From Sipunculus nudus (Eukaryota > Annelida > Sipuncula > Golfingiida > Sipunculidae): a stretch of 64,000 nt of DNA. The notes beneath the pieces are model-generated. The model made no database searches. It was given only the letters and a program-made list of their open reading frames with translations, and was not told where the DNA came from. Shown piece by piece: positions 19,927 through 63,399 of this stretch. The position numbers were made by a program, and so were the translations under genes. Position 1 is the first letter of the stretch, and every line of letters begins with the position of its first letter. The DNA is taken from positions 54,846,079 to 54,910,078 of the forward strand of contig CM049309.1 of assembly GCA_026874595.1 (NCBI GenBank). Reading direction: 5' to 3'.

Positions 19927-22900
19927 ACACATATATAAAAATATATATACATAGAAATAGATAAATAGATGTATATACTGGGCCAAGTACCCCACATGGC
20001 CCACAACAGAGAGAGCACAAGTGTTCATTATGCCTCTATGATCATGCAATGTTTCAGGGTGGCTGAACTATTCTTCCAAAACTGTCATGGACATATTGTA
20101 GTATCTCAACATAGCATTCATGGCTCAATTGCAAAATGTTCAAAATTACAGGAGTCAGGAGATTTATTATTATAAAGCATGCATTGTGCCTGAAATTTTG
20201 ACAATTCTTAGTCTTGAAAAGTTTAATATCTTAAAACTATTACCACAGTCATATTTCTTTGTATTATAATACACAGGTACAAAATCTGAGAAGGCAACAA
20301 CTAGTGGTTTTAATCTTGGTGGAAAGAGGGAGCTGCCAACTACAGACAGCCCCGCTGAAAAACGGGGGAAACCTGGTACAGTGATTGTGATATTACTTGA
20401 CATAACACAAATCTCAGATACAAAGTAGAAACCGAAACAGAACTCTTTCCTTTTTTAAAGTGATTTTCATGATATTTCTGTATACCATGGCTGAAATAGT
20501 GTTACTTGTCCCTGTAGACCTGCAGAAGCTGATCAGTATGACTTGCCCTTGTAAGCATACTGTGTCTAACCAAAATGACTTGTCCTTGTAGACATGCTGA
20601 GTCTGAACAATATGACCTGTCCTTGTAGACATACTGTGTCTGACCAATATGACTTGTCCTTGAAAAAATGCTGTGTCTGACCAAAATGACTTGTCCTTGT
20701 AGACATGCTGTGTCTGCCCAATATGACTTGTCTTTAAAGACATGTTGTGTCTGACCAAAATGACTTGTCCTTCTAGAAAAGCTGTGTCTGACCAATCTGA
20801 CTTGTCCTTCTAGACATTCTGTGTCTGACCAAAATGACATGTCCTTGAAGAAATGCTGTGTCTGACCAAAATGACTTGTCCTTGTAGACATGCTGTGTCT
20901 GCCCAATATGACTTATCTTTAAAAACATGTTGTGTCTGACCAAAATGACTTGTCATTCTAGACATGCTGTGTCCAACCAAAATGACTTGTCCTTGTAGAC
21001 ATGCTGTGTCTGACCAAAATGACTTGTCCTTGTAGAGGAGCTATGTCTGACCAAAATGGTTTGTACTTCTTGACATGCTGTGTCTGACCAAAATGACTTG
21101 TTCTTGTAGAAAAGCTGTGTCTGACCAAAATGATTTGTCCTTCTGGACATGCTGTGTCTGACCAAAATGACTTGTCCTTGTAGAAAAGCTGTGTCTGACC
21201 AAAATGACTTGTCCTTGTAGACATGCTGTGTCTTACCAAAATGACTTGTCCTTGTAGACATGCTGTGTCTGACCAAAATGATTTGTCCTTCTGGACATGC
21301 TGTGTCTGACCAAAATGACTTGTCCTTGTAGAAAAGCTGTGTCTTACCAAAATGACTTGTCCTTGTAGACATGCTGTGTCTTACCAAAATGACTTGTCCT
21401 TGTAGAAAAGCTGTGTCTGACCAAAATGATTTGTCCTTCTGGACATGCTGTTTCTGACCAAAATGACTTGTCCTTGTAGAAAAGCTGTGTCTGACCAAAA
21501 TTACTTGTCCTTGTAGACATGCTGTGTCTTACCAAAATGACTTGTCCTTCTAAAAAAGCTGTGTCTGACCAATATGACTTGCCCTTCTTGACATGCTGTG
21601 TCTGACCAATATGAATTGTCCACCTTGGCATGCTGTGTCTGACCAGTATTACCTGTCCTTGTAGACATACTGTGTCTGACCAATATGACTTTTCCTTGTA
21701 GAAATGCTGTGTCTGACCAAAATGACTTGTCCTTGTATAAAATGCTGTGTCTAACCAATCTGACTTGTCCTTCTAGACATTCTGTGTCTGACCAAAATGA
21801 CTTGTCCTTGAAGAAATGCTGTGTCTGACCAAAATGACTTGTCCTTGTAGACATGCTGTGTCTGCCCAATATGACTTGTCTTTAAAGACATGTTGTGTCT
21901 GACCAAAATGACTTGTCATTCTAGACATGCTGTGTCCAACCAAAATGACTTTTCCTTGTAGACATGCTGTGTCTGACCAAAAAGACTTGTCCTTGTCAAG
22001 GTGCTATGTCTGACCAAAATTGCTTGTCCTTCTTGACATGCTGTGTCTGACCAAAATGACTTGTTCTTGTAGAAAAGCTTTGTCTGACCAAAATGATTTG
22101 TCCTTCTGGACATGCTGTGTCTGACCAAAATGACTTGTCCTTGTAGAAAAGCTGTGTCTGACCAAAATGACTTGTCCTTGTAGACATGCTGTGTCTTACC
22201 AAAATGACTTGTCCTTGTAGAAAAGCTTTTATTGACCAAAATGACTTGTCCTTGTAGAAATGCTGTGTCTAACCAAAATGACTTGTCCTTGTAGACATGC
22301 TGTGTCTGACCAAAATGACTTGTCCTTTAAGAAAAGCTGTGTCTGACCAATATGACTTGCCCTTCTTGACATGCTGTGTCTGACCAATATGAATTGTCCA
22401 CCTTGGCATGCTGTGTCTGACCAGTATTACCTGTCCTTGTAGACATACTGTGTCTGACCAATATGACTTGTCCTTGTAGAAATGCTGTGTCTGACCAAAA
22501 TGACTTGTCCTTGTAGAAATGCTGTGTCTAACCAAAATGACTTGTCCTTCTAGACATGCTGTGTCTGACCAAAAATTACTTGTCCTTCTAGAAAAGCTGT
22601 CTGACCAGAATGACTTGTCCTTGTAGACATGCTGTGTCTGACCAATATGAATTGTCCTTGTAGAAACGCTGTGTCTGACCAAAGGAATTGTCTTTCTAGA
22701 CATGCTGTGTCTGACCAATATGACGTCTTTCTAGACATGCTATGTCTCACCAATATGACATGTCTTTCTAGACATGCTGTGTCTGACCAAAATGACTTGT
22801 CCTTGTAGAAAAGCTGTGTCTGACCAAAATGACTTGTCCTTGTTGACATGCTGTGTCGGACCAAAATGACTTGTCCTTGTAGAAAAACTGTGTCTGACCA

Positions 22901-25900
22901 AAATGACTTGTCCTTGTAGAAATGCTGTGTCTGACCAAAATGACTTGTCCTTGTAGAAATGCTGTTACCAACCAAAATGACTTGTCCTTGTATACATGCT
23001 GTGTCTGACCAAAATGACTTGTCCTTCTAGAAAAGCTGTGTCTGACGAATATGACTTGCCCTTCTTGACATGTTGTGTCTGACCAATATGAATTGTCTAC
23101 CTGGGCATGCTGTGTCTGACCAATATTACCTGTCCTTGTAAACATACTGTGTCTGACCAATATGACTTGTCATCGTAGAAATGCTGTGTCTGACCAAGTG
23201 AATTGTCTTTCTAGACATGCTGTGTCTGACCAATATGATGTCTTTCAAGACATGCTATGTCTCACCAATATGACATGTCTTTCTAGACATGCTGTGTCTG
23301 ACCAAAATGACTTGTCCTTCTAGAAAAGCTGTGTCTGACCAATATGACTTGCCCTTCTTGACATGCTGTGTTTGACCAATATGAATTGTCCACCTTGGCA
23401 TGCTGTGTCTGACCAGTATTACCTGTCCTTGTAGACATACTGTGTCTGACCAATATGACTTGTCCTTGTAGAAATGCTGTGTCTGACCAAAATGACTTGT
23501 CCTTGTAGAAATGCTGTGTCTAACCAAAATGACTTGTCCTTCTAGACATGCTGTGTCTGACCAAAAATTACTTGTCCTTCTAGAAAAGCTGTCTGACCAG
23601 AATGACTTGTCCTTGTAGACATGCTGTGTCTGACCAATATGAATTGTCCTTGTAGAAACGCTGTGTCTGACCAAAGGAATTGTCTTTCTAGACATGCTGT
23701 GTCTGACTAATATGACGTCTTTCTAGACATGCTATGTCTCACCAATATGACATGTCTTTCTAGACATGCTGTGTCTGACCAAAATGACTTGTCCTTGTAG
23801 AAAAGCTGTGTCTGACCAAAATGACTTGTCCTTGTTGACATGCTGTGTCGGACCAAAATGACTTGTCCTTGTAGAAAAACTGTGTCTGACCAAAATGACT
23901 TGTCCTTGTAGAAATGCTGTGTCTGACCAAAATGACTTGTCCTTGTAGAAATGCTGTTACCAACCAAAATGACTTGTCCTTGTATACATGCTGTGTCTGA
24001 CCAAAATGACTTGTCCTTCTAGAAAAGCTGTGTCTGACGAATATGACTTGCCCTTCTTGACATGTTGTGTCTGACCAATATGAATTGTCTACCTGGGCAT
24101 GCTGTGTCTGACCAATATTACCTGTCCTTGTAAACATACTGTGTCTGACCAATATGACTTGTCATCGTAGAAATGCTGTGTCTGACCAAGTGAATTGTCT
24201 TTCTAGACATGCTGTGTCTGACCAATATGATGTCTTTCTAGACATGCTATGTCTCACCAATATGACATGTCTTTCTAGACATGCTGTGTCTGACCAAAAT
24301 GACTTGTCCTTCTTGACATGCTGTGTCTGACCAAAATGACTTGTCCTTCTTGACATGCTGTGTCTGACCAAAATGACTTGTCCATTTAGACATGCTGTGT
24401 CTGACCAAAATGACGTGTCCTTCTAGACATGCTGTGTCTGACCAAAAATGACTTGTCCTTGTAGAAAAGCTGTGTCTGACCAAAAATGACTTGTCCTTGT
24501 AGACATGCTGTGTCTGACTAACATGACTTGTCCTTCTAGACATGCTGTGTCTGACCAATTACCTTTTCTTGTAGACAAACTGTGTTCACCAGTATGACTA
24601 GTCCCTTTACACATAAAGTGTGAATGATATCCCTTACCCTTTTAACGTACTGTGTCTGATCGGTGTGACCTTTCCCAGTTAACTTTAAGATACTTATCAA
24701 TATGATTTCCCCTTGTATGTGTGTTTCTGACCAATGTGATTTGTCCCTGTCAGCATACTGTATTTGGTCAGAGTGATTTGTCTGTTTTGACAAGGAAGCA
24801 CCCCATTTTTGCAATATGTGAAAAAAATAGACATTATAATTAAGTGAATAGTGGCAATGAGGTGACTTATCAGAGGTACTAGCCATTTAATTAAAAACTG
24901 CATGTTGGTTATCTAACTTGAGCATAAACATCTTTGTTCAGTTTCATTCGATATTTTCATTATATTAATACTCATATGGTACCACATGCAGTCTGTCTTA
25001 TCAAAGTAAAATATGACTGATACATCAATGTTGTTCTGATTGATTTACTATGATTTAACAATTTGCACAAGTACTGAATTTGCATCATATTCTGATTGGA
25101 AAATCAGTAAACCCTGTAATGATTTATCGACATACTCAGTTCCAGAAATGAGGATGGATTTTATTAGCTCAGCTGACTATAAGTCAACTGAAACTGTTGG
25201 ACCCATGAATCTGAATTCCAGCATACAGTTAGATGTCCCCAAATCTCCTACCCTCCCGAAAATTGGGTCACTACAACTTCATTCTATGGAGATATAAAGG
25301 AAAAGCCTTAATTTTCCATTAAAAAGCCAATGTCACAATTCAAGACTGCCTAATATTGAAACCACATCTGTTTATGAGTATATTGAACTATATATTTCCT
25401 ATATACATACCAGAAATTAGGTCAGTATTATGTATTTTCTTGAAGTTATTGGTCCGAACATAATGCAAGTTGTAAAAAATCTTGAAAGATAGTTACTCAC
25501 TTAACATGAGAAATGTTAAAGCTAGAGACTTTTCAGGAATATAACTCAATCTAATCAAAATTCAGTTATATACCAAAAATTAAATCTGAATTTTGCATAT
25601 TTTAAAGTTTTTAGCATAAATATAAAATCTGTACTATGAAATTTGCCCAACTTTGGCCATGGCACATTTTTTTTCCTGTAAGCACTGTTGATTTTATTTT
25701 GATGTCATGCATACATAAGGATTTCAGCTTCTTAATTCTGAAATTTGAAAGGAATTGACCAAAACTGTAGCTTTTATTAAAGTTTTTATGAGACCATGTC
25801 ACACCTAGGGTATACTGAAGGGCTCTTCAGTCACCTGTATGTCACCCTTGTGGACCTTTCAGGCTAATGATGCACACTTGAAGTGGGGCATACCTGGCAA

Positions 25901-40179: not shown

Positions 40180-42225
40180 CATAGGCAAACCACTGCAATT
40201 TCAGCACTGACAAGAAAGGCATATCCAGCCACTGCTGTGTCAGCTCTGGCAGGTAAAGGATATCAGACCACTGCAGTGTCAGTGCTGGCAGGTAAAGGAT
40301 ATCAGACCACTGCAGTGTCAGGACTGGCAGGTAAAGGATATCAGACCACTGCAGTGTCAGTGCTGGCAGGTATAGGATATCAGACCACTGCAGTGTCAGG
40401 ACTGGCAGGTAAAGGATATCAGACCACTGCAGTGTCAGGACTGGCAGGTATAGGATATCAAACCACTGCAGTGTCAGGACTGGCAGGTATAGGATATCAA
40501 ACCACTGCAGTGTCAGGACTGGCAGGTAAAGGATATCAAATCACTGCAGTGTCAGGACTGGCAGGTAAATTATATCAGACCACTGCAGTGTCAGGACAGG
40601 CAGGTATAGGATATCAGACCACTGCAGTGTCAGGACTGGCAGGTAAAGGATATCAGACCACTGCAGTGTCAGGACTGGCAGGAAAAGGATATCAGACCAC
40701 TGCAGTGTCAGTGCTGGCAGGTATAGGATATCAGACCACTGCAGTGTCAGGACTGGCAGGTAAAGGATATCAGACCACTGCAGTGTCAGTGCTGGCAGGT
40801 ATAGGATATCAGACCACTGCAGTGTCAGGACTGGCAGGTAAATTATATCAGACCACTGCAGTGCAGGACTGGCAGGTAAAGGATATCAAACCACTGCAGT
40901 GTCAGGACTGGCAGGTAAATTATATCAGACCACTGCAGTGTCAGGACTGGCAGGTAAAGGATATGAAACCACTGCAGTGTCAGGACTGGCAGGTAAATTA
41001 TATCAGACAACTGCAGTGTCAGGACTGGCAGGTAAAGGATATCAGACCACTGCAGTGTCAGGACTGGCAGGTATAGGATATCAGACCACTGCAGTGTCAG
41101 GACTGGCAGGTAAAGGATATCAAACCACTGCAGTGTCAGGACTGGCCGGTAAATTATATCAGACCACTGCAGTGTCAGGACTGGCAGGTATAGGATATCA
41201 GACCACTGCAGTGTCAGGACTGGCAGGTAAAGGATATCAGACCACTGCAGTGTCAGGACTGGCAGGTATAGGATATCAGACCACTGCAGTGTCAGGACTG
41301 GCAGGTAAAGGATATTAGACCACTGCAGTGTCAGGACTGGCAGGTAAAGGATATCACACCACTGCAGTGTTAGGACTGGCAGGTAAATTATATCAGACCA
41401 CTGCAGTGTCAGGACTGGAAGGTAAAGGATATCAGACCACTGCAGTGTCAGGACTGGCAGGTAAAGGATATGAAACCACTGCAGTGTCAGGACTGGCAGG
41501 TAAATTATATCAGACAACTGCAGTGTCAGGACTGGCAGGTAAAGGATATCAGACCACTGCAGTGTCAGGACTGGCAGGTATAGGATATCAGACCACTGCA
41601 GTGTCAGGACTGGCAGGTAAAGGATATCAAACCACTGCAGTGTCAGGACTGGCCGGTAAATTATATCAGACCACTGCAGTGTCAGGACTGGCAGGTATAG
41701 GATATCAGACCACTGCAGTGTCAGGACTGGCAGGTAAAGGATATCAAACCACTGCAGTGTCAAGCCTGGCAGGTAAAGAATATCAAACCACTGCAGTGTC
41801 AGGACTGGCAGGTAAATTATATCAGACCACTGCAGTGTCAGGACTGGCAGGTAAAGGATATCAAACCACTGCAGTGTCAGGACTGGCAGGTAAAGGATAT
41901 CAGACCACTGCAGTGTCAGGACTGGCAGGTAAATTATATCAGACCACTGCAGTGTCAGTGCTGGCAGGTAATGGATATCAGACCACTGCAGTGTCAGAAC
42001 TGGCAGGAAAAGGATATCAGACCACTGCAGTGTAACTGCTGGCAGGTATATCAGACCACTGCAGTGTCAGCACTGGCAGGAATATCAGACAACTAAATTG
42101 TCAGTGCAGGCAGGTAAATGATATCAGACCACTGCAACATCCTTGCAGGCAGGTAAAGGATATCAGACCACTGCAACATCAGTGAAGACAGGTAAAGGAT
42201 ATCAGACCACTGCAGTGTGATTACA
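40180..42225. repeat. 39-bp minisatellite, about 50 copies, with 507-bp higher-order repeat
   Basis: The unit begins GACTGGCAGGTAAAGGATAT and ends CAGACCACTGCAGTGTCAG, 39 nt. It is open on both strands because 39 is a multiple of three: plus strand GLAGKGYQTTAVS, minus strand LTLQWSDILYLPV. Two kinds of unit, with GTAAAGGATAT or GTAAATTATAT or GTATAGGATAT, alternate. A marker variant (GATATGAAACC) at 40961 recurs at 41468, an offset of 507 nt or 13 units. The frame is broken by a 2-nt loss near 40863 and a TAG near 41315, so I call it non-coding. Each unit has CAG|GTAAAG (donor-like) and CACTGCAG (acceptor-like). Confidence 0.93.
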
Positions 42226-42780
42226 CTCAGTCCCACATTATCCTGATAAATCTATGTTAGTTGATGAGATATTTATAATTAATTCTTATACTCCTGTTGA
42301 TGTGTTTCATTCAGTCACAAAATTATTTAGTTAATGAGGAACTGCATGCACCACTTAGTCTACTTTAGCATTTCAACAAAACTATTTACTACCATATTTA
42401 CTTCCAAATCAACCCTGTCTGACACAGGTCTAAGGGTAGCTGAATTGTAATCATGCACTCATACATCCCAAAGTGCCAGAAGCATTAATCAATATTTTTT
42501 CTTTTTATTACTACTATTAACTATTGTGACTCCACTTTATGTTACAATAATTAACTAAGTAAATATAACGGAAATATATGAATAATAAGCCAAAGCTATT
42601 GTTCCCTAACAAAGATGTCATGCTTTCGTTTCAGCAGAATAAATTAGTCATGAGTTGATCACTGCTTAGACAAAAGTTGGCATCTCGCATGATTGACATG
42701 CAATTCCCTAAAGTTATCTGCCGGGCTATAATCACAGTACCGCAACATGGGCAGTCCTCATGATCACATGGAAATATAGA
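42226..42780. other. Spacer between the two 39-bp arrays
   Basis: AT-rich, no gene or repeat recognised. Confidence 0.5.
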
Positions 42781-44060
42781 AGCAGCTATACACCTGGCAG
42801 CAGAACGTGAATATGTAGGAGTAGCTGCACAGATGCCAACGTCACATGGACCTGTAGAAGCAGCTTAGCAAATTATATGCCAAAATCACATGAAGTGCAG
42901 AAGCAGCTGTACAAATGCCACCATCACATGAACATGTAGAAGCTGCTGTACAGATGCCAGCATAACATGGACATGTAGAAGCAGCTGTACAAATGCCAAC
43001 ATCACATTTACATGTAGAAGCAGCTGTGCAAATGCCAACATCACATGGACATGTAGAAGCAGCTGTACAAATGCCAACATCACATGGACATGTAGAAGCA
43101 GCTGTACAAAAGCCAACATCACATGGACATGTAGAAGCAGCTGTACACAATCAAATATCACATGGATGTGTAGAAGCAGCTGTACAAATGACAGCATTAC
43201 ATGTACATGTAGAAGCAGATGTACAAATGCCAACATCACATGGACATGTAGAAGCAGCTGTACAAAATCAAATACCACATGGATGTGTAGAAGCAGCTGT
43301 CCAAATGACAGCATCACATGTACATGTAGAGGCAGGTCTGCAAATGCAATCATCACATGTACATTTAGAAGCAGCTGTACAAATGCCTGCATCCCATGGA
43401 TGTCTAGAAGCAGCTGTGCAAATGACAGCATCAGATGTATATTTAGAAGCAGCTGTGCAAATGCAATCATCATGTACATTTAGAAGCAGCTGTACAAATG
43501 TCTGCATCCCATGGATGTCTAGAAGCAGCTGTGCAAATGCAATCATCACATGTACATGTAGAAGCAGCTGTCCAGATGCCAGCATCACATGTACATGTAG
43601 AAGCAGCTGTCCAGATGCCAGCATCACATGTACATGTAGAAGTAGCTGTCCAGATGCCAGCATCACATGTACATGTAGAAGCAGCTGTCCAGATGCCAGC
43701 ATCACATGTACATGTAGAAGTAGCTGTCCAGATGCCAGCATCACATGTACATGTAGAAGCAGCTGTACAAATGCCTGCATCACATGGATGTGTAGAAGCA
43801 GCTGTATAGTCAGCAGTGCTACGTATATGGATGCCAATATTCCATTGACATGCACCACATGGACAGGCATAATTAGTCAGCTGTATAGATGCCAGCATCA
43901 CATGGTGTTTTTGGATATATGCTAGGAGCTGTTCAACTGCAGCATCATATAGTTATGTAGAAGCAGCAGAACAGCCTGCAGTCTCATATGGATAAACAGA
44001 ACCTGTTATACAGCTAGCATCCCATGGACATGAAGAAGCATCTGAACAACCTGCAGCATC
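42781..44060. repeat. Second, unrelated 39-bp minisatellite
   Basis: The unit reads CATGTAGAAGCAGCTGTACA then AATGCCAACATCACATGGA, 39 nt. Core about 42890-43815 with about 24 copies, flanked by diverged copies to about 44060. Open on both strands (plus HVEAAVQMPTSHG; minus LLLHVHVMLAFVQ) for the same numerical reason as the previous array. No shared sequence with it. Homogeneous block at 43550-43760 (GTCCAGATGCCAGCATCACA). Confidence 0.92.
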
Positions 44061-54800: not shown

Positions 54801-57800
54801 AATATCTGTCCAATGTGAAAATTTTATTGTGAATCTCATGTACATTTACAACTTATTTACAATAACCTTGCTCAATGCTCAATTTCTCTAATTTTCTTCT
54901 GACACTACAAAAATCTTGGCCATGACAATTTTGTACCAGGTATGGAAAATTCACATTACTTGGGATCTAAAACAGCAGAATTTAGCATCCAGAATGGTAC
55001 ATATGCACCCAACTCTGGGAATTTGAAACGATGTGAGGTTACCTTTAGCACAGCTCCGTGAACACTCTGACCATGGCGTGTACTGCCAGCCGAACTCTGA
55101 AGCATTCTGTGTCCCATTAGCAATAGGCATCGTATACTCGTACCTTACACCCTTGTTCTCTTCCTGCAGCAATAACTACAAGAAAAACCAGATAAGCCAT
55201 GGGCCATGATGTTATGCAGTCAGAAACACTGATTATATATTGTAAAACCTGCAGTGAAGTCATTAAGTGATTACTGGTTGGAAATGTACTTGATTTGAAT
55301 AAAGAGATGACATGTAACATTTGCTAGTGAACAAAGTAGATGTGTTACAAAGAGTTACCATAATCTAACCATGTATCTTTATGATAATCTAGTCCTTATA
55401 CATGTCAGTTTCATTTTTAGTAATACAATGTTATGTTAAATGATAATATAATATAATAGGATATAATGTAATTTAATAGATAAAATATTATCTTATTGTG
55501 AAATAAACACCATGAAAACGTTGATTATCCATCTGAAGCAAAATCAGTTAACAAATTTTATTTGATGAATTAAAAACAGACATAGTAACTGTGGTAAACA
55601 GGATATATACTACTAACCAATGCCAAAGTAGGACACTGAAACCTGTATTGCCTTTTATTCTATATTAATTTATGCTATTTGTTTCACTTAGAAGTCAGCT
55701 AAAGATAACTTTACTGAAAAACAGCATGGTCACATCATATCAAGAGCAGACCCAACAGGGCAATTTGGCAAGTTTATAATACTCCTCAATTACTTGGAGG
55801 AATTACCTTTTTTGTTGCCTTTTCGCAATACCTTCGAGGCTAACACCTCCCCCTTATACCTTAATACCTTGCAAAAATATCAATGTTAACTTATTAGTTT
55901 TATGATAGGGGTTAACAGGAATGTAATATACATACACTATATATAATAATTTTTACTGCATGTTGCTTTGTCTGTACTTTTTAAAACATGGACCAAGTGC
56001 CTTTCCCTCCTATGCCACTGAAAACTACTTTTATATTTGTTATTTCTGAATTAACGTAGCTTGGTTGATCAGATTTTTGTATGGCTGGCTTTCCTAAACA
56101 GCAAAATTCTGTTTACTCCTATGCATTAAGGTACTGGCTATAACTAAGACTTCTGGGAATAACCTGAGTAAATAAAGTCCTGAGCTACTTGGTATTTTAA
56201 AAGCAAAGTCTGTGGTTATAGGAGCAGAGTGGTCACAAAAAGACGGACGGGTGACTGTATCTAAACGCACCATGACAGTGAGGTCCTCTGAGGTAGGTCC
56301 TATAGCAGTCAATCTCTCTGGTTGTTCCTCTTGTCTCTCATAATGAAACACTGTCCCACCAACTTCAAATATACGCGGCCAGTCTATGGTCCAGTCCCCA
56401 TTAATGTAATATCTCTTGCTAATAGTTGATTTTAAAGCTACAAGTGGAAATTGTCCATTGTAAAACATAATCATAAAGTGAAGAATTAAACAATAAAAAA
56501 AGCATGAGAATGAAGTTAATGCAGGTGAAGAGATTCAATATATATTCCTGTAGATATTAAACAGTAAGACTCAAGTGTGCATCTGTTCATATAACACAAG
56601 TACATTCAGAATCACCTATGTGCCTCCATTTAGATGATTTAGGTGTAATCTAACTATCCTGTGTGCATTTGTTAAGATAATATAGGCATACTCGTACTCA
56701 TCTGATGGTCTCTAGTCAGATAATAAATTCAAGTTCAGACTCATATGTGTGCTTTATTTAGATTATACAGGTGTTTTCCGACTCATATAAACTTCTATGC
56801 AGATAATACAGGTGTATTAATACTTGTCTGAGTGCCTCTGTGCAAAAAATGCAGGTGTATTCCAAATTGTTTGAATGTGTCTCTGTACAGGTAATACAGT
56901 TGTACTCAAACTTGTCTGTGTGTCTGAACAGATAATACAGGTGTACTCAGAGTGCATCTGTACAGATATTCCAGGTGTACTCATACTTGTACTCAGACTT
57001 GCCCGTGTGCCTCTGTACAGATAATACAGGTGTTCTCTGACTTGCCTGTGTGTCTCTGTACAGATATTATGGGTGTTCTCAAACTTGTCTGTGTTCCACT
57101 GTACAGATAATATGGGTGTTCTCAAACTTTTCTGTGTTCCACTGTACAGATAATATGGGTGTTCTCAGGCTTGTCTGTGTGCCTCTGTACAGATAATATG
57201 GGTGTTCTCAGACTTGTTTGTGTGCCTCTGTACAGATAATATGGGTGTTCTCAGACTTGTCTGTGTGCCTCTGTACAGATAATACAGGTGTTCTCTGACT
57301 TGCCTGTGTGCCTCTGTACAGATAATATGGGTGTTCTCAGACTTTGCACACCATTATAATGGACCCATATTTAAGTAAATGACTGTTTGTGTCAAATTAA
57401 GGTGTTGTTTCCATAAAAAAAACAATCCTAGCCATTTGATTCTTTATATTTATGAGGAACTAAATGACCACAAACTCAATACAAATATGGCTCAAATAAA
57501 TCCTGCTGATTATGCAGGGAGGACTAATGAGATACTGGCTGAGGTAAGGGTTTATCTTATGGGGGTAGGACACAGCCTGGCTTTGGACTATGGCGTGGAA
57601 GGTCCCCAATTGGAACCCTGCCACAGCTGAAAAGATGGCAACATGGTGAAATCTGGCTAGAACCTCAAAGATTTGCTCTAATGTCTAAATGCAAAGTTAT
57701 AGCTTCTGGATTATCCTTCGCTCCCTGCACATGAATCTGAAATCCAGAAGGCTGAATATAATACATGTAATGTTTATCGTTTGGTTACTTTCATCTTCTT

Positions 57801-60800
57801 TCAGTACCACCAACGGGCCGTGGACCTATCCTTTGATGTTACAAAGACGAATTGCTCAGAGGAAAATATTGGCCCGATCCTGGATTCGAACCCATGTCAA
57901 TGGCACACAATCCTTCGTACCAACCGCTTCGCTAGCAAAGCAAGCTTCACTAGCAAGACAGTTCGGTCCGCTTTTATGTGCACCCGCAACACACCCCCTC
58001 TTAAGAGTGTTCTACTATCAGAACAAGCCTAATTTTCCTAGGAGTCACACTTTGGTAAGCTTATTCCCTGGGCCACAAAGTTTACCATCACCCAGATGAG
58101 CCCCCATTTTGTTACAAAGACAAATTGCTCAGGGGAAAATACTGGGCTGATCCGGGATTCGAACCCATGTCGGTGGCGCACAAGTCCTGCATACTAATAG
58201 CTTCACTAGCAAAGCAAGCTTCACTAGCGAGACAGTTTCAGTCCGCTTTTATGTCATGCCATAACATTGAAAAAAACTTCTTATCTATAATCATGTATAG
58301 CTATCAGTTACTTTAATTCTGTAGTATGAACAGAATGACTAAATACAGTCTATGATCATATATGTATATTTTCTGGTACCAGATACTAACCGAGGTAATT
58401 TTTGGAGTATGAGATCTCTTCAACATGTATATGTACTGCTCCTTGTGGGATGGTTACAATGGTCTTGTATGCTGAAGTTACAAAAATAATATTAAATAAT
58501 ATTAAAATAGTATTGCACAAACCTTTGCTTGACTCAAATTATGCTTAAACAAAGGCACCTTAGAAAATTTGGAATTGTTATCAGTAGTGTGCTGAGATAT
58601 ACTTCATGTATGGCAAGACATTAACTTTGTGATCATTTAACTTATCATGTCACTCCCAGATTCACAATTCACATACACTCAGCCGGCCAAGTTATTAGTG
58701 GTCATAATATGAGAGTTGTTTCCTAAAGTATATTCAGACTATAATCCAGAGAGTGGGGCAGTGTATGTGGCCACTGAAACCTACTTTATGCAAATTAGAC
58801 AAGTAACAAATTCAACAACAGCACAGCAAATGGTGTATCATATGTCTGTTGCATGTCTTGTGACCTCTGATCTCTTTAAATATGCATAGATTTTGCCAGC
58901 AATCAAACTTAAGTGAGATATTGTATTGGTTAATATTTCTATTGCGTTTCATCAAAATGCATTATGCTCCTGGTAAGTGATTGTGGCTACACCACAATGT
59001 AGCCTGGTGACCACTGACCAAATTAAATATGCATGGATTTTGCTTATATTCCAGCTCAGGTGAGATAATCTATTGGTAAGTAGTTATAGTGAGCTTCGTG
59101 AAAATCTTTCGAAGCCCTGGTTAGTTATCTTAAACTTAAAAGTAACTCTTTTGATCACAATAAAAACTTAAAACTTAACTCTTAAAGGTATCCTAAAAGT
59201 TAACAGGCAGCTAGACCGTGGGTATACCATAATGCATTCCATCATACATAGACATATAAAAATTGATGGTGATGGATGTATATGTTGCTTGTGCAGAGAT
59301 TTATACATAAACACATTTAATAATTTCTCAGAAACTTTGCGCACACTGTCACATAATCATTGAGCGTTATAAGGTACTTACTGTCTGTCAGGTCATCTGT
59401 AACTTTCATGTACGTGCCTTCTATTGTTTCACACATGGTGCCATCCCCACCACACACCCGGCACCTGTCCTCCACAGCATTGGATCCCAAGACCTTGTCA
59501 CACCCTACAGGCTGCAAATATCAGCAAATCTGAGTGTGAAATTTTATAATACCCTGCAGACTGCAAGAATGAGCAAGTTCTGACAATGGATTCTTATCAT
59601 CTACTACAGTTCTAAACACTTACTTCTGGCTGCAAGGAAATCTTATCACACCCTACAGGCTACAAGAACCAGCAAATCTGAATGTGAATATTATCACATC
59701 CTGCAGGCTGCAAGAATCAGCAAATCTGAATGTGAATATTATCACATCCTGCAGGCTGCAAGAATCAGCAAATTCTGACAGTGAATTCTTATCACTTACT
59801 ACATGCTGTAAGGAAATCTTATCACATCTTACAAGCTGCAAGAATCAGGAAAATCTGACAGTGAAATATTTTCACATGCTACAGGCAAGGAAAAGCTGAT
59901 TCTGAGACTGAAATCCTATCACATCAGACAAGCTGAAAGAACCACCAAAATCTGATGCTGTAAGGAAAGGCAGGTTCTGACAGTGAAATCTTATCACAAT
60001 AGACAAGATGAAAGAATCAGCCAATACAGTCTTATCAAATCTTATCACATCCTCTATAGGCTGCAAGAAGGAGCAAATTGTAAAAGTTAATTCTTGTCAC
60101 ATCCTACAAGGTGCTCAAATTTGTCACCATGACCTAATTCAGTTTTCAAAGAAGATTTTAACAGTAACTGTCTGGATGTCCATTTGGAACTTTCTAGATC
60201 TAACAGTTTCAACAGATTGTGTCCTACTACACAAACTATATGAGACTTATCAAAGGGTGCATTTTGTTAACAGCCAGCCAAGAATAATTGTTCAAGGTTT
60301 CATAAATACATTTGAATGGAATTATGTAGAGTATTATGAGCCAAAAGTAAAGCTATACATTATAAATATACATATATAATTTAGTACAATTACTGTGCAG
60401 TTGTTTAAAATTCCTATCAAGAGCAAAAATTTGGCTGCCATAGTCAATATAATAGAAAAGTTTACCAAATTGACCATCTTAATAAATGTAAAGATAGAAT
60501 GAATACATGTGGCTTCTGGGGGATGTATTTTGTAACTGTAATGTAGAAGTATAGTGAGTAGGACCTTCACCTTGCATTCTCCATTTATACAGATGTCATG
60601 TGTGTCAGGAAAGCACTGTGTTCCATCAACTACCTTGGTGCTGCGCTCAGTGTAGAAGTTATATCCAACAGCCATGCAGTTCAATGCACAAGGCTTCACA
60701 CGCCCTGTAACACAAGGCGTGTCAATTTAAACAGACTTAAGGCTTTCCACACTCTGTAACAACCAGGTATAGTAATAGGTTTTACACATCCTGTAACACA

Positions 60801-63399
60801 AGGCATATAAATATAAACAGACTCAAGCATTTACACACCTTTTAACACAAGGCATATAAATATAACAGATTCAAGGCTTCAAATGCCCTGTAACACAAGG
60901 CATATAAATATAAACAGACTCAAGGCTTTACACACCCTTTAACACAAGGCATATAAATATAACAGACTCAAGGCTTTACACACCCTGTAACACAAGGCAT
61001 ATAAATATAAACAGACTCAAGCATTTACACACCCTTTAACACAAGGCATATAAATATAAACAGACTCAAGCATTAACACGCACTTTAACACAAGGCATAT
61101 AAATATAAACAGACTCAAGGCTTTACACACCCTTTAACACAAGGCATATAAATATAAACAGACTCAAGGCTTTACACACCCTGTAACACAAGGCATAAAC
61201 AGACTCAAGGTTTCACACACCCTTTAACACAAGGCATACCAATTTAAACAGACTTAAGGCTTTACACACTCTGTAATACAAGGCATATAAATATAAACAG
61301 ACTCAAGGCTTTACTCTGTAACACAAGGTGTATTAACAATGACAAGCAAGGCTTCACAAGCTTATAAGATAAGCCAAATAAACTTAAATAGACAAAGGGC
61401 TTCACACACAGTAAATACAGTCTAACCTATCTGACCGACCACCTGTAAAATGCGGGCAACTGACTTTTATGACCATTGGATATCAGTCCCTTTCAAAATT
61501 CTGTTATATTATCTGTAGATAAACCTTGTGAAATACGACTACCTGGCTATTATTGATTATGGGCAGTTCTTTCTGACCAAGGTGTTATTATTACTAATGA
61601 ATGAACCTGCCTAATGCGGGCACTCTTTGTGCTACTCCTTGACCAGCACCAACAGGTTTGTTGATTGCCCATGCATGAAGTTGCAGTTACCTGCACAGGC
61701 TCACTGTGTGTTTTATTGGTGTGTGCATGTACCAACTAGCTGGGCTACTTGACTGGCTCTTGACTTGCTAATCCACATGAATGGAGAAGCCCAGGTGTTG
61801 CTAAGAAGTAAGTGATGTTAGTAACCAGCGGTGTCATCAAATAATTTTTGGTCATTTATATGATTACAATCTTCATGTCAGAAAAATTTCTATAAATATG
61901 AGATTGAAATGAACCTTATCAGAATGAGTTTAGTGATTCACTTATTCACATACAACCCTCTTTTATATTCCATTTGTATTTTGTAAATTTGACTGTATAG
62001 CTGTAAATCACTGCCATAAAAACAATATGGGTACAATGTCTCGTAAATAATAACTTTAAGTAAAGCTCATTCAGATATCTGAGAGTCAAGGGACAAGTCA
62101 GCGCAAGCTTAAACTAACATTTTAATCAACTGTATGCAAATTTATTATATTCATATATCAACACATATAATTACATATATCATATAAGTACATTATTACA
62201 AAATACTTTTACAAAATATGTATCTAACTGATAGTCATTAAGGTGGCCTAATCTGTATATTTCAGTCATTCATGTCATCTAGGTTTGTACAGTTCCTAAA
62301 TTTTCAGAACCTGTTTACTAAGACCACCTGTCTACGACCACTTGAGCACAGTCCCTTGGGTGGTCGCATTAGACAGGTTCGACTGTACAAGGACAATGAT
62401 ATCCCGTTATTTAGCTTTTGAATGAAATTTTACTCAAAATGGATGCAGTGTTATTAGTTGTGATAAAGGTCAATTAAATATCTGAAGACCTGAATAGGCT
62501 CCATTTTGTTTGAACAGTAGGTTCTTAGGTGTACATGAGGTAGATTATGAAAATTTTACAATCCAACACCATATACTTGATTCACAGCCTTGAATAATAA
62601 GAAGCCTGACTTTCAGGTTGCTCTAAATTGTAAATGAAATTTCACGTTTACTGTAGTACCTTTACTAAAATTCTGGTTTTCAAAGCTGTTTAAGTATGAC
62701 TCCTCTGAATGTAAAGACAGATGGCTATGTAAGAAGAACAAAAGAAAGGACATGTAGATAACATGAAGACTTGCCTCCTGCATACGGCACCCACTTGTAC
62801 AAGGCCCCTCGGAATGGACGAGTATCAGTGCTGCTGCACTGGATTTCCCTGAAGTCTGTGGCATTTAAAGGACAGTCATGGGTGTTACAGGACTTGTATC
62901 GCTTCCTCTCCCCAGTACAGTACTTACCGCCATAGCCAGGCCTACAACAAACAATCCATGAATGCAACAAGATACAAAATTTTCTGTGAATTATAACAAA
63001 AATCGCAGTAAAGCAATATTCAGTAACAGATAGATTCAGCTGTAATTTGATAAAAAATAAACTTAAAACTGAATTATACTGCAGTTGCCTTCATATTTCA
63101 GAGGTTAAAATTTTGCGATTTTCATCTGCTTATTGCTTTGCAAAGGGTTCCATTGTCAGTGGGTTTAAGCTGATATTCAAAATTAAAGATTTAATGTAAA
63201 AGGTCACCCAACTCTTTAATATTACATAATTAATGAGTCAACAGATGGCTTACTCTGGTTGGTCACATAACCTCTCGCTGGCCTCCACTCCCCCACCACA
63301 TGTGCGTGTACATGACCCCCAGTCAGACCAGTCTCCCCATCCACCATCCTGAGGCTCAGGCTTCCAACCATGTGGCTCACAACGACCTTTATAGCACCA
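44866..63399 (-). CDS. ADAMTS6/10: ADAMTS6/ADAMTS10-type secreted metalloprotease (5'-partial, 12 exons)
   Basis: ADAMTS proteins are secreted zinc metalloproteases of the extracellular matrix; the ADAMTS6/10 pair acts on microfibrils and adhesion. Twelve exons join in phase: 63399-63254, 62941-62775, 60704-60571, 59511-59382, 58471-58391, 56437-56271, 55175-55043, 54313-54184, 53884-53680, 52709-52536, 47823-47682, 44996-44866. They total 1740 nt (579 codons plus TGA). Order: end of the disintegrin-like domain, TSR1, cysteine-rich domain, spacer, TSR2-5, PLAC. Five TSRs and a PLAC domain, with [19 protein letters not shown] and CETIEG blocks, match vertebrate ADAMTS10 and ADAMTS6 specifically. 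Whether this is the single invertebrate ancestor of both cannot be decided here. Signal peptide, prodomain and catalytic domain lie beyond the right edge. Confidence 0.93.
45085..46095. repeat. Degenerate minisatellite of about 30 bp interrupted by a MITE
   Basis: Copies of CTCTGAGAGGTATCTGTTCTG are scattered at 45098-45370 and 45936-46075. The inserted element at 45371-45935 divides the array. In the ADAMTS intron before the PLAC exon. Confidence 0.6.
45371..45935. mobile_element. MITE with about 85-bp terminal inverted repeats
   Basis: The left end TAGCCCGATTTAATCGGACT continues CAATATTATAAGCCCTGCCA. The right end is its reverse complement with few changes, extending to ACAGAGAGAATTTCTAC. 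Total about 565 nt, no coding. GTGCTCT is present on both sides (45362-45368 and 45936-45942) and may be a target duplication, but TA at the very ends and the surrounding tandem repeat leave this open. Confidence 0.8.
46096..46573. other. ADAMTS intron, nothing recognised
   Basis: AT-rich intron with a run of 15 G (46230-46244). No repeat module recognised. Confidence 0.5.
46574..47645 (+). mobile_element. Helitron-like non-autonomous element, copy 3
   Basis: Starts TCCGCAAAAACGAAGTTTTG, with GTATCCGCAAAA inverted as TTTTGCGGATA in the first 30 nt. Ends GTAGTCG-CTTGT-CGACTAC, CCGTATT, CTAG. Host A before and T after. The interior has the same modules as copies 1 and 2, with local duplications (TCAGGCTTATATCTCA at about 47081 and 47261). 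Its end lies only 36 nt from the donor of the ADAMTS TSR5 exon. Confidence 0.8.
47682..47823 (-). CDS. ADAMTS6/10: ADAMTS6/10 exon, TSR5
   Basis: 142-nt exon (phase 0 in, 1 out). Encodes the main part of TSR5: [28 protein letters not shown]. Follows WVTGQWGE from the previous exon. Proline replaces Ser/Thr in the CxxS/TC position, so this TSR lacks the O-fucosylation consensus. Donor GTCAGT. Confidence 0.92.
47824..48082 (-). other. ADAMTS intron between TSR5 exon and the hAT-like element
   Basis: About 260 nt with TATATGTAAATGTAAGGATA-type sequence that recurs in diverged form at about 47910 and 50250. No coding. Confidence 0.45.
48083..50159. mobile_element. hAT-like non-autonomous element with 8-bp target duplication
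   Basis: The ends are CAGACCTGGGAGCCAGCCG and the inverted CGGTGGCTCCCAGGTCTG. The 8-bp direct repeat GTAAGGAT flanks them (48075-48082 and 50160-50167), which is the hAT signature together with the CAG...CTG termini. Subterminal regions are packed with GGCTGGCTAGCCGG and GGCGGCGGCTGG motifs. The 2.08-kb interior has no recognisable transposase and carries an AT microsatellite. Located in the ADAMTS intron between exons TSR4 and TSR5. Confidence 0.88.
48804..48877. repeat. AT microsatellite
   Basis: About 36 AT dinucleotides within the hAT-like element. Confidence 0.95.
50160..51401 (-). repeat. Dispersed repeat family, ADAMTS intron
   Basis: 50640-51170 contains three or four modules with CACCATGACCTAATTTCAGG, TTTCCATGGAGAT and TTCTAGGTC. 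These are the reverse orientation of the AACCTGAAATTAGGTC / CTAGAATCTTC modules at 4230-4700 and 5770-5900. No exon recognised. Confidence 0.6.
51402..52320. mobile_element. piggyBac-like non-autonomous element, TTAA-flanked
   Basis: TTAA-GGGGGAACATGACAC at the left is inverted as GAGTCAAGTTCCCCC-TTAA at the right. TTAA duplication is diagnostic of piggyBac-type insertion. The interior of 0.9 kb has a short open frame at 51909-52169 on the minus strand, not recognised. It inserted in the TTAA of the older dispersed repeat (GCCCTG-TTAA). Confidence 0.75.
52536..52709 (-). CDS. ADAMTS6/10: ADAMTS6/10 exon, TSR4 body and start of TSR5
   Basis: 174-nt phase 0-0 exon. [16 protein letters not shown], then [13 protein letters not shown] closes TSR4, and WVTGQWGE starts TSR5. 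Acceptor TTGTTGTAG, donor GTGAGG. Confidence 0.93.
52710..53679 (-). other. ADAMTS intron, nothing recognised
   Basis: 970-nt intron between TSR4 and TSR3 exons. No element or tandem repeat recognised. Confidence 0.55.
53680..53884 (-). CDS. ADAMTS6/10: ADAMTS6/10 exon, TSR3 and start of TSR4
   Basis: 205-nt exon (phase 2 in, 0 out). [20 protein letters not shown] begins TSR3, with CSKTCGG fulfilling the O-fucosylation consensus, and ACNVGECP closes it. WATGDWAP begins TSR4. Confidence 0.95.
54184..54313 (-). CDS. ADAMTS6/10: ADAMTS6/10 exon, TSR2 body
   Basis: 130-nt exon (phase 1 in, 2 out). [20 protein letters not shown] followed by HCF and [11 protein letters not shown]. Completes the second TSR started in the previous exon. 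Strong splice sites (CCCTTCCAG, GTAAGT). Confidence 0.92.
54314..55042 (-). repeat. ADAMTS intron with cryptic CCAGTACAGAAA repeats
   Basis: 54535-54705 holds interspersed CAGTACAGAA / TACTGGTACAG motifs on a short scale. This is a cryptic simple repeat, not a regular array. Confidence 0.5.
55043..55175 (-). CDS. ADAMTS6/10: ADAMTS6/10 exon, end of spacer and start of TSR2
   Basis: 133-nt exon (phase 0 in, 1 out). [20 protein letters not shown] ends the spacer in the usual YEY/YRF form. [16 protein letters not shown] begins TSR2. The nearby AG at 55158 would remove the LLLQ residues that families conserve, so the upstream acceptor TTCTTGTAG is chosen. Confidence 0.93.
55176..56270 (-). other. 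ADAMTS intron, nothing recognised
   Basis: About 1.1 kb, AT-rich. The in-frame extension downstream of the donor at 56270 is readable for about 40 codons but matches nothing in the family. Confidence 0.55.
56271..56437 (-). CDS. ADAMTS6/10: ADAMTS6/10 exon, spacer domain
   Basis: 167-nt exon (phase 1 in, 0 out). Contains [24 protein letters not shown] and [16 protein letters not shown], the conserved spacer pattern. The donor is GTGCGT after the ATG of DLTVM; this gives VM-LLLQ, as in the family. Confidence 0.9.
56540..57350. repeat. 43-bp minisatellite in ADAMTS intron
   Basis: About 18 copies of GTGTTCTCAGACTTGTCTGT followed by GTGCCTCTGTACAGATAATA; diverged at the left, homogeneous from 57000. 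Confidence 0.88.
57351..57835 (-). other. ADAMTS intron, nothing recognised
   Basis: About 480 nt. An open frame at 57379-57630 on the plus strand has a CCCCAATTGGAACCCTGCC-type ending that may be part of an old repeat; no family recognised. Confidence 0.4.
57836..57980 (-). mobile_element. tRNA-derived SINE, copy A
   Basis: On the minus strand an A-box-like TAGCGAAGCGGTTGG (57934-57920) is followed by a B box GGGTTCGAATCC (57893-57882). This is the internal RNA polymerase III promoter of a tRNA-like gene. The 3' body reads GATCGGGCCAATATTTTCC then GAGCAATTCGTCTTTGTAAC. It shares this body with copy B, so it is a SINE rather than a tRNA gene. Confidence 0.72.
58111..58254 (-). mobile_element. 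tRNA-derived SINE, copy B
   Basis: Same family and orientation as copy A. A box TAGTGAAGCTATTAG (58209-58195), B box GGGTTCGAATCC (58166-58155), tail ending GAGCAATTTGTCTTTGTAAC. Preceded by TTTCAGTCCGCTTTTATG-type sequence also seen next to copy A. The two lie head to tail about 270 nt apart. Confidence 0.75.
58391..58471 (-). CDS. ADAMTS6/10: ADAMTS6/10 exon, start of spacer
   Basis: 81-nt exon (phase 1 in, 1 out). [20 protein letters not shown] is the conserved first strand pair of the spacer (vertebrate IPKGSVHI). Ends YSKNYL plus one base. Acceptor TAACTTCAG, donor GTTAGT. Confidence 0.92.
58472..59381 (-). repeat. ADAMTS intron with inverted copy of the 6.3-kb dispersed family
   Basis: 58830-59270 contains AAATATGCATGGATTTTGC, CAGGTGAGATAAT and CTAGACCGTGGGTATACCAT. 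These are the reverse complement of modules at 6260-6790, so it is a copy of the same family in opposite orientation. Confidence 0.6.
59382..59511 (-). CDS. ADAMTS6/10: ADAMTS6/10 exon, end of cysteine-rich domain
   Basis: 130-nt exon (phase 0 in, 1 out). [20 protein letters not shown] followed by [12 protein letters not shown] is the diagnostic end of the ADAMTS cysteine-rich domain. Acceptor ATATTTGCAG, donor GTAAGT. The acceptor and first exon bases are the apparent source of the minisatellite next to it. Confidence 0.95.
59500..60080 (-). repeat. Minisatellite of about 50 bp derived from the 59511 splice acceptor
   Basis: About ten to eleven diverged copies. In the sense of the ADAMTS gene (minus) the unit reads TTTGCTGATTCTTGCAG| followed by CCTGYAGGRTGTGATAA. 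That is the intron end, the acceptor and the first 15-18 exon bases of the exon at 59511. Best copies lie at 59640-59775. A reader using one of these AGs in the gene's frame would meet a TGA within about 13 codons in the consensus unit. Confidence 0.82.
60081..60570 (-). other. ADAMTS intron, fragment of dispersed repeat
   Basis: 60115-60290 carries TCACCATGACCTAATTCAG and TTTCTAGATCTAACAG, a diverged copy of the family at 50640-51170. Remainder AT-rich. Confidence 0.5.
60571..60704 (-). CDS. ADAMTS6/10: ADAMTS6/10 exon, cysteine-rich domain
   Basis: 134-nt exon (phase 1 in, 0 out). [20 protein letters not shown] and VVDGTQC...DICINGECK match the vertebrate ADAMTS10 stretch with NFYTER and VDGTPC. 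The acceptor TTGTGTTACAG lies at the edge of a minisatellite built from this same junction. Confidence 0.95.
60690..61335 (-). repeat. 49-bp minisatellite derived from the 60704 splice acceptor
   Basis: About 13 units. In the ADAMTS sense (minus) each reads TATATGCCTTGTGTTAMAG|GGTGTGTAAAGCC, then TTGAGTCTGTTTATATTTA. The true junction is CCTTGTGTTACAG|GGCGTGTGAAGCC, so the unit is a copy of the intron end, AG and first 13-17 exon bases. Every unit I could read retains AG (TTACAG or TTAAAG). In the gene frame, unit sequence following the AG runs into TGA after five codons. Confidence 0.88.
61406..62387. mobile_element. Tigger/pogo-like non-autonomous element, TA-flanked
   Basis: TACAGTCTAACCTATCTGA at the left, inverted as TTAGACAGGTTCGACTGTA at the right; subterminal GACCACCTGT motifs in both. 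The interior has no recognised transposase. TIR style is like the element at 12390-13860 but sequence is different. Located in the ADAMTS intron between exons at 62775 and 60704. Confidence 0.75.
62388..62774 (-). other. ADAMTS intron starting with a GC donor
   Basis: No repeat recognised. The intron donor at 62774 is GCAAGT. Confidence 0.6.
62775..62941 (-). CDS. ADAMTS6/10: ADAMTS6/10 exon, end of TSR1 and start of cysteine-rich domain
   Basis: 167-nt exon (phase 2 in, 1 out). [20 protein letters not shown] ends TSR1. [20 protein letters not shown] followed by WVPYAGG begins the cysteine-rich domain. The donor is GAG|GCAAGT: only this GC donor gives the phase 1 needed for RVKPCALNC in the next exon. 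Confidence 0.92.
62942..63253 (-). other. ADAMTS intron, nothing recognised
   Basis: 312-nt intron with GTAAGC donor and TTGTTGTAG acceptor. Confidence 0.6.
63254..63399 (-). CDS. ADAMTS6/10: ADAMTS6/10 exon, end of disintegrin-like domain and TSR1
   Basis: 146-nt exon, first in the window (phase 0 in, 2 out). [20 protein letters not shown] closes the disintegrin-like region, then [19 protein letters not shown] begins TSR1. The WxxW motif (C-mannosylation) and CTRTCGG (O-fucosylation) are both present. Acceptor TTGACTGTAG. Confidence 0.93.

Follow-up and report, generated by a model that had tools for sequence, protein, structure and literature searches.

An ADAMTS gene in the genome of Sipunculus nudus, which may resemble ADAMTS6/ADAMTS10 in particular, raises the question of how the spliceosome settles on one acceptor when 13 close copies of that acceptor lie directly upstream of it, and whether an array of this kind is a regulatory device or a by-product of a repeat-rich genome. 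The gene occupies the minus strand of the stretch that we analyzed, 64,000 nucleotides of contig CM049309.1 (positions 54,846,079 to 54,910,078), hereafter called the window. Coordinates are those of the window unless they carry a contig or locus name, and a slash within a motif marks the splice junction. In the sense direction, the features around the array are:

62775..62941, minus strand: exon E2 (ADAMTS, upstream of E3), placed by sequence reading and by alignment of the joined protein with ADAMTS13
61317..61419, minus strand: degenerate outer copies with the exon's own version, GTGAAGCC, located by local alignment and a 139-bp TRF row
60706..61316, minus strand: tandem array of 13 decoys of the E3 acceptor, delimited by TRF and by cutting at the acceptor motif
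60571..60704, minus strand: exon E3 (ADAMTS), identified with the ADAMTS_CR_3 profile and ADAMTS13 alignment
59513..59883, minus strand: second array, degenerate copies of the E4 acceptor TTGCAG/CCTGTAGGGTGTGA, found by TRF and self-alignment
59382..59511, minus strand: exon E4 (next after E3), placed by ADAMTS13 alignment and sequence reading

Anatomy and descent of the array at exon E3

As read from the sequence, exon E2 ends in phase 1 with ..TAT GCA GGA G, and the intron between E2 and E3 apparently opens with a GC donor (GGAG/GCAAGT, 62770-62780). GC donors are often linked with alternative splicing. The true acceptor of E3 lies at the boundary between 60705 and 60704 (..TTGACACGCCTTGTGTTACAG/GGCGTG). 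A preliminary description of this DNA had placed an ADAMTS exon at 60704, and this exon is real. Specifically, the match to ADAMTS_CR_3 rises from 17.4 bits for E3 alone to 54.6 bits (profile positions 4-115) when E2, E3 and E4 are joined, and the joined product, with the array left out, gives an ADAMTS13 alignment (residues 2 to 133) in which a gap of one residue falls near the junction of E2 and E3. This match across the junction without any array sequence indicates that the acceptor used for the coding sequence is the last one. Paralogous ADAMTS loci (L005-L008) were also fetched, of which L007 alone had its exon edge read; this exon from the same assembly has a phase-1 acceptor that is one codon off and a phase-0 end as in E3.

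The proposal that the repeat unit contains the intron end, the AG and the start of the exon is borne out. The modal unit of 49 bp is composed of 33 intronic and 16 exonic bases. On the sense strand it opens with the 16 bases that resemble the exon, and the 33 that resemble the intron come next, with the AG last. The exonic part reads GGCGTGTGAAGCCTTG in E3 and GGTGTGTAAAGCCTTG in the array consensus, with 14/16 positions identical. A self-alignment check for exon bases in the unit was also positive, as local alignment of the E3 junction (25+25 nt) with the upstream intron scored 52 against a maximum of 28 over 200 first-order shuffles. The earlier estimate of about 13 units directly upstream of the true acceptor agrees with our count of 13, in an array that runs up to the true acceptor. 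The decoy AGs are found at 61316, 61271, 61222, 61181, 61132, 61083, 61034, 60985, 60937, 60888, 60840 (shifted by one), 60791 and 60754, followed by the true AG at 60705, and the successive spacings from 61316 to 60705 are 45, 49, 41, 49, 49, 49, 49, 48, 49, 48, 49, 37 and 49. It had been stated that all units keep the AG; this holds in register for 12/13 decoys, with CAG in only 7/13 and AAG in 5/13, but not for the decoy at 60840, which reads AAAA/GG with its AG displaced by one base (60839).

TRF describes this array at 60777-61314 with a period of 49, 11.2 copies and a score of 796, with a 97-bp double period scoring 824, and its 139-bp row extends to 61419. The range of 60690-61335 given in the preliminary description does enclose the regular array, but degenerate copies continue beyond it to about 61419 (local alignment score of 64 versus a maximum of 37 over 300 shuffles). 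The units have a mean pairwise identity of 0.87. With respect to the homogenized interior and divergent edges that characterize mirages, the picture is mixed. Identity to the consensus is 0.83-0.88 for three units near the edges (u61271, u60791 and u60754) and 0.95-1.00 for seven interior units, with the remaining values being 0.88 and 0.85 for the interior units u61083 and u60888 and 0.96 for the edge unit u61316. Membership in a dispersed repeat family was rejected on the grounds that a 98-base array consensus gave 7 matches in the assembly, all at one locus (C4:54906769-54907383), with the caveat that missing matches elsewhere are no proof of rarity.

The unit thus spans the intron end and the exon start, the array adjoins an authentic boundary and many units keep the splice signal. 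With these properties the E3 array is a mirage, a name given to minisatellite-like tandem duplications of an intron-exon boundary that are described in the lancelet genes Adh3, globin BflGb6/BflGb9, TnC and PGBD5 (PMC3087553, PMC3902484).

The direction of descent is likely from the exon junction to the array. At one position 10/13 regular units have an A where E3 and the outer copies have a G, and the resemblance of these outer copies to the exon argues that the array derives from the exon. In addition, the near-edge units u61271 and u60754 share a middle, CCTTAAGTCTGTTTAAATTG, that differs from the remaining units and is older-looking. The outer copies, these two near-edge units and the conserved protein frame together support an order in which the exon junction came first and the array later. 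Note that the interior units u61222 and u60888 also have the exon-like G (u61083 has a T), so the direction is argued here without a clean split between edge and interior units as its basis.

Reading frame and strength of the decoy acceptors

When the array is read through to the exon in the E2 frame, a premature stop follows from 13/13 decoys. The preliminary description had placed a TGA after five codons, and this distance is correct for 10 of the 12 in-register AGs; at the others the stop comes after one codon (61316) or 31 codons (60791), and from the shifted AG at 60839 it comes after two codons.

We scored the acceptors with motif models of three widths, whose training set of 60-62 acceptors was mostly chosen by the model's own score and in which the rank of the true site varies with width, so that the scores are weak evidence. 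In the widest model (-20..+3) the true acceptor scores 2.8, which is below all 13 decoy AGs, with six of the seven CAG decoys at 8.3-9.9 and the seventh at 5.2. With the -14..+1 model the true acceptor scores 7.1 and is tied with four CAG decoys, the other three being lower at 5.3-6.5, and with the -12..+3 model its score of 7.9 is within the CAG-decoy range of 7.8-9.4. Four CAG decoys (61181, 60985, 60888 and 60791) match or exceed the true acceptor whichever of the models is used, two (61271 and 60754) do so in two models and one (61316) in a single model, while AAG decoys exceed the true site in the widest model only. As the local motif does not rank the true acceptor first, some use of decoys is plausible. 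The array provides a natural test of spliceosome choice, with one acceptor to be selected among 14 near-identical ones that the local motif does not discriminate. By eye, TTGAC is present near the true acceptor where most units have TTTAT; a branch point at this difference would be a guess.

Splice-junction arrays elsewhere in the gene and genome

A second acceptor-side mirage is present in the same gene at exon E4. Its sequence is unrelated to the E3 array, its copies are degenerate, and their spacing is irregular at 30-69 bp, most often about 48. The AGs of these copies lie at 59836, 59806, 59756, 59708, 59660, 59630 and 59561, with weaker copies extending to 60116, and self-alignment of the E4 junction scored 56 versus a shuffled maximum of 36. 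Junction self-alignment at 18 exon edges of the gene (the spacer exon E5, which was not located, is left out) gave no mirage at 16 of them. Likewise, the acceptor of exon E6 has no match by junction self-alignment to a 43-bp array located upstream of this exon (56800-57344). Two arrays at 18 edges exceed the roughly 0.27 expected, a value obtained by hand arithmetic from array periods (13+43+10+48+49) over about 10.9 kb and 18 edges, for a gene that was picked because of the finding. Minisatellites with a period of 10 or more make up 16.7% of the window, including those at 20504-24604, 40189-42218 and 42763-43806, and one 37-bp array has 111 copies.

Recurrence in the genome was addressed by surveying exon loci of myosins and kinesins (30 of each) with TRF and self-alignment, followed by reading of the flagged loci. 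The survey covers 120 exon edges, for which match edges served as stand-ins, and since there is overlap between some of the loci (as between L042 and L047) fewer than 60 are independent. One clear case and one borderline case were recovered from the 60 loci and 120 edges. The clear case (L036:523-1522, on C7 near 52358784) is a donor-side mirage with a unit of 36 bp, in which the myosin exon donor ACAG/GTCAGT occurs some 28 times; 25 CAGGTCAGT occur among 28 GGTCAGT, a count that includes the true donor. The borderline case (L020, around 1744 and 1940) is an old duplication with two copies that includes the myosin exon donor TATGGAT/GTAAG. Its self-alignment scored 45 against a maximum of 29 over 60 shuffles, and a narrower junction test gave 24, where the 95% level is 23 and the maximum is 28. 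If array founders were placed at random, the total of the periods of all detected arrays predicts 1.5-2.0 cases per 120 edges, so nothing suggests that splice junctions were favored by selection.

Several other flagged loci were rejected. The kinesin locus L058 is not a mirage, as its 17-bp array ends before the exon acceptor and no exon bases were seen in the unit; this intronic array (L058:1040-1513) lies just upstream of the acceptor as read and has an acceptor-like TTCTACAG in many units. The arrays of L066 and L050 begin inside the intron, L019 was dismissed after reading, and no repeated splice junction was seen by eye at the weaker flags L031, L034, L035, L037, L038, L045, L059, L060, L065 and L070. 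As a separate observation, cytochrome oxidase genes with nearly equal COX1 match scores are present on contigs C60, C61, C62, C66, C72, C74, C75 and C89 (two), and a further one is on C123; the COX1 search also returned a 51-residue match on C5. The translated oxidases from C61 and C123 (L010 and L041) are bacterial-looking, L041 being cbb3-like by eye, and the contigs from C60 to C123 that contain these genes are perhaps from a symbiont or a contaminant. A muscle myosin exon matched a myosin heavy chain of squid (3i5f) best, at 194.1 bits, closely followed by myosin-6 at 193.0, a margin that does not decide its affinity, and no molluscan haemocyanin domain was detected in a search whose control gave no hit either.

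Interpretation and comparison with known systems

The reading that we favor, with a probability of roughly 0.8, is that the E3 array is a neutral minisatellite of the mirage type, a by-catch of a repeat-rich genome, whose decoys are mostly ignored through exon definition. An origin by tandem duplication across a splice junction, as put forward in the preliminary description, is supported. A 49-bp segment with the last 33 bases of the intron and the first 16 of the exon would have been duplicated in tandem, and slippage during replication, or else unequal exchange, would then have enlarged the array. The copies would have landed on the intron side, a placement that leaves the gene intact provided that the last AG is used. 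The spliceosome most likely does choose this last acceptor, owing to its position beside an exon that is intact and has a 5' splice site and not to a better motif; decoys would be used rarely, with the resulting transcripts having premature stops. Two acceptor arrays in one gene together with a donor array in another suggest that repeat-rich genomes acquire arrays of this kind by chance and at an ordinary rate, which would make the effects of copy number on splicing testable at many loci.

The preliminary description had raised a regulatory reading, poison splicing that depends on array length, in which decoys compete with the true acceptor, a premature stop comes with every decoy that is chosen, and the level of the protease is set by the number of copies. 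The stops that follow from all 13 decoys, the four CAG decoys that no model scores below the true acceptor, and the GC donor of the E2-E3 intron as read would each fit this reading. We nevertheless regard it as unlikely, given that the C at -3 is missing in 6/13 decoys, as expected without constraint, and that the frequency of arrays fits a random origin. In human ABCA7 exon skipping grows with repeat length and some transcripts use a donor that lies in one of the repeat units, but the use of that donor is constant with length and only skipping changes (PMC5954066). The lancelet Adh3, globin and TnC mirages are reported to splice normally (PMC3087553, PMC3902484). Recurrence at about the rate of random founders, together with these published mirages with normal splicing, makes a dedicated regulatory device unneeded. 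A broader form of the idea is that in this animal, outside the lancelets, minisatellites over splice junctions supply decoy splice sites across the whole genome as a standing feature, with some of them (such as the E3 array with its several strong decoys and GC donor) being length-dependent poison-splicing tuners of gene dose; we consider this distinctly unlikely.

Nor do other origins or fates compete well with a neutral mirage. That the array is an intermediate in intron or exon gain, with a unit that could develop into an additional exon along the lines put forward for the globin mirages of lancelets, would agree with an anatomy that is the same as in the published model (PMC3087553), but a stop is present in every decoy frame and no convincing donor was seen in the units (by eye, unscored), making this very unlikely. 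We judge it highly improbable that the repeat came first, with the start of E3 taken from a pre-existing intronic minisatellite. Exon and array do share sequence, but sharing alone gives no direction, and against this order the first codons of E3 fall in a conserved domain whose ADAMTS13 alignment has a gap of one residue near the junction, a paralogous exon has its phase-1 acceptor offset by one codon, and the outer copies are nearer to the exon than most regular units are. Finally, tandem arrays are prone to mis-assembly, but separate loci of the same kind exist and the units differ from each other, such that invention of the whole array by assembly is unlikely and an artefact is, overall, extremely improbable.

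No publication on this ADAMTS locus was present among the titles listed in literature searches. The E3 array belongs to a kind of repeat that is already published in lancelets and is probably a case outside that group. Like the E3 array, the BflGb6 mirage is of the acceptor type, combining an intron 3' end with the 5' part of an exon, and both acceptor and donor types occur in lancelets as they do in the present genome (PMC3087553). The unit lengths differ, with 150-160 bp in BflGb6 and 10-72 bp in Adh3 versus 49 bp in the E3 array. In the lancelet report splice signals are kept in many but not all units and could act as cryptic sites, unit number varies between haplotypes, and mirages are proposed as a source of new introns (PMC3087553). 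Adh3 data and globin RT-PCR suggest that regular splicing is undisturbed (PMC3087553), and for TnC no aberrant mRNA is described, in an account that does not show PGBD5 transcripts across the repeats (PMC3902484). Splicing was judged normal for Adh3, globin and TnC.

Two human systems also bear comparison. The VNTR in ABCA7 intron 18, where skipping of exon 19 is what rises with length, is like the E3 array intronic and beside an exon, each of its 25-bp units begins with a donor-like dinucleotide, and transcripts can retain one unit (PMC5954066). It differs in that the signal is a donor and not an acceptor, in that the published description of the repeat, as far as it goes here, does not mention copying from an exon junction, and in that an effect was measured in ABCA7 (PMC5954066). 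Internal tandem repeats in human segmental duplications are located, again like the E3 array, at exon-intron boundaries, where they can yield alternative splicing and new introns; unlike the E3 array, they belong to recent paralogues and half of them are within coding exons (PMC2812944).
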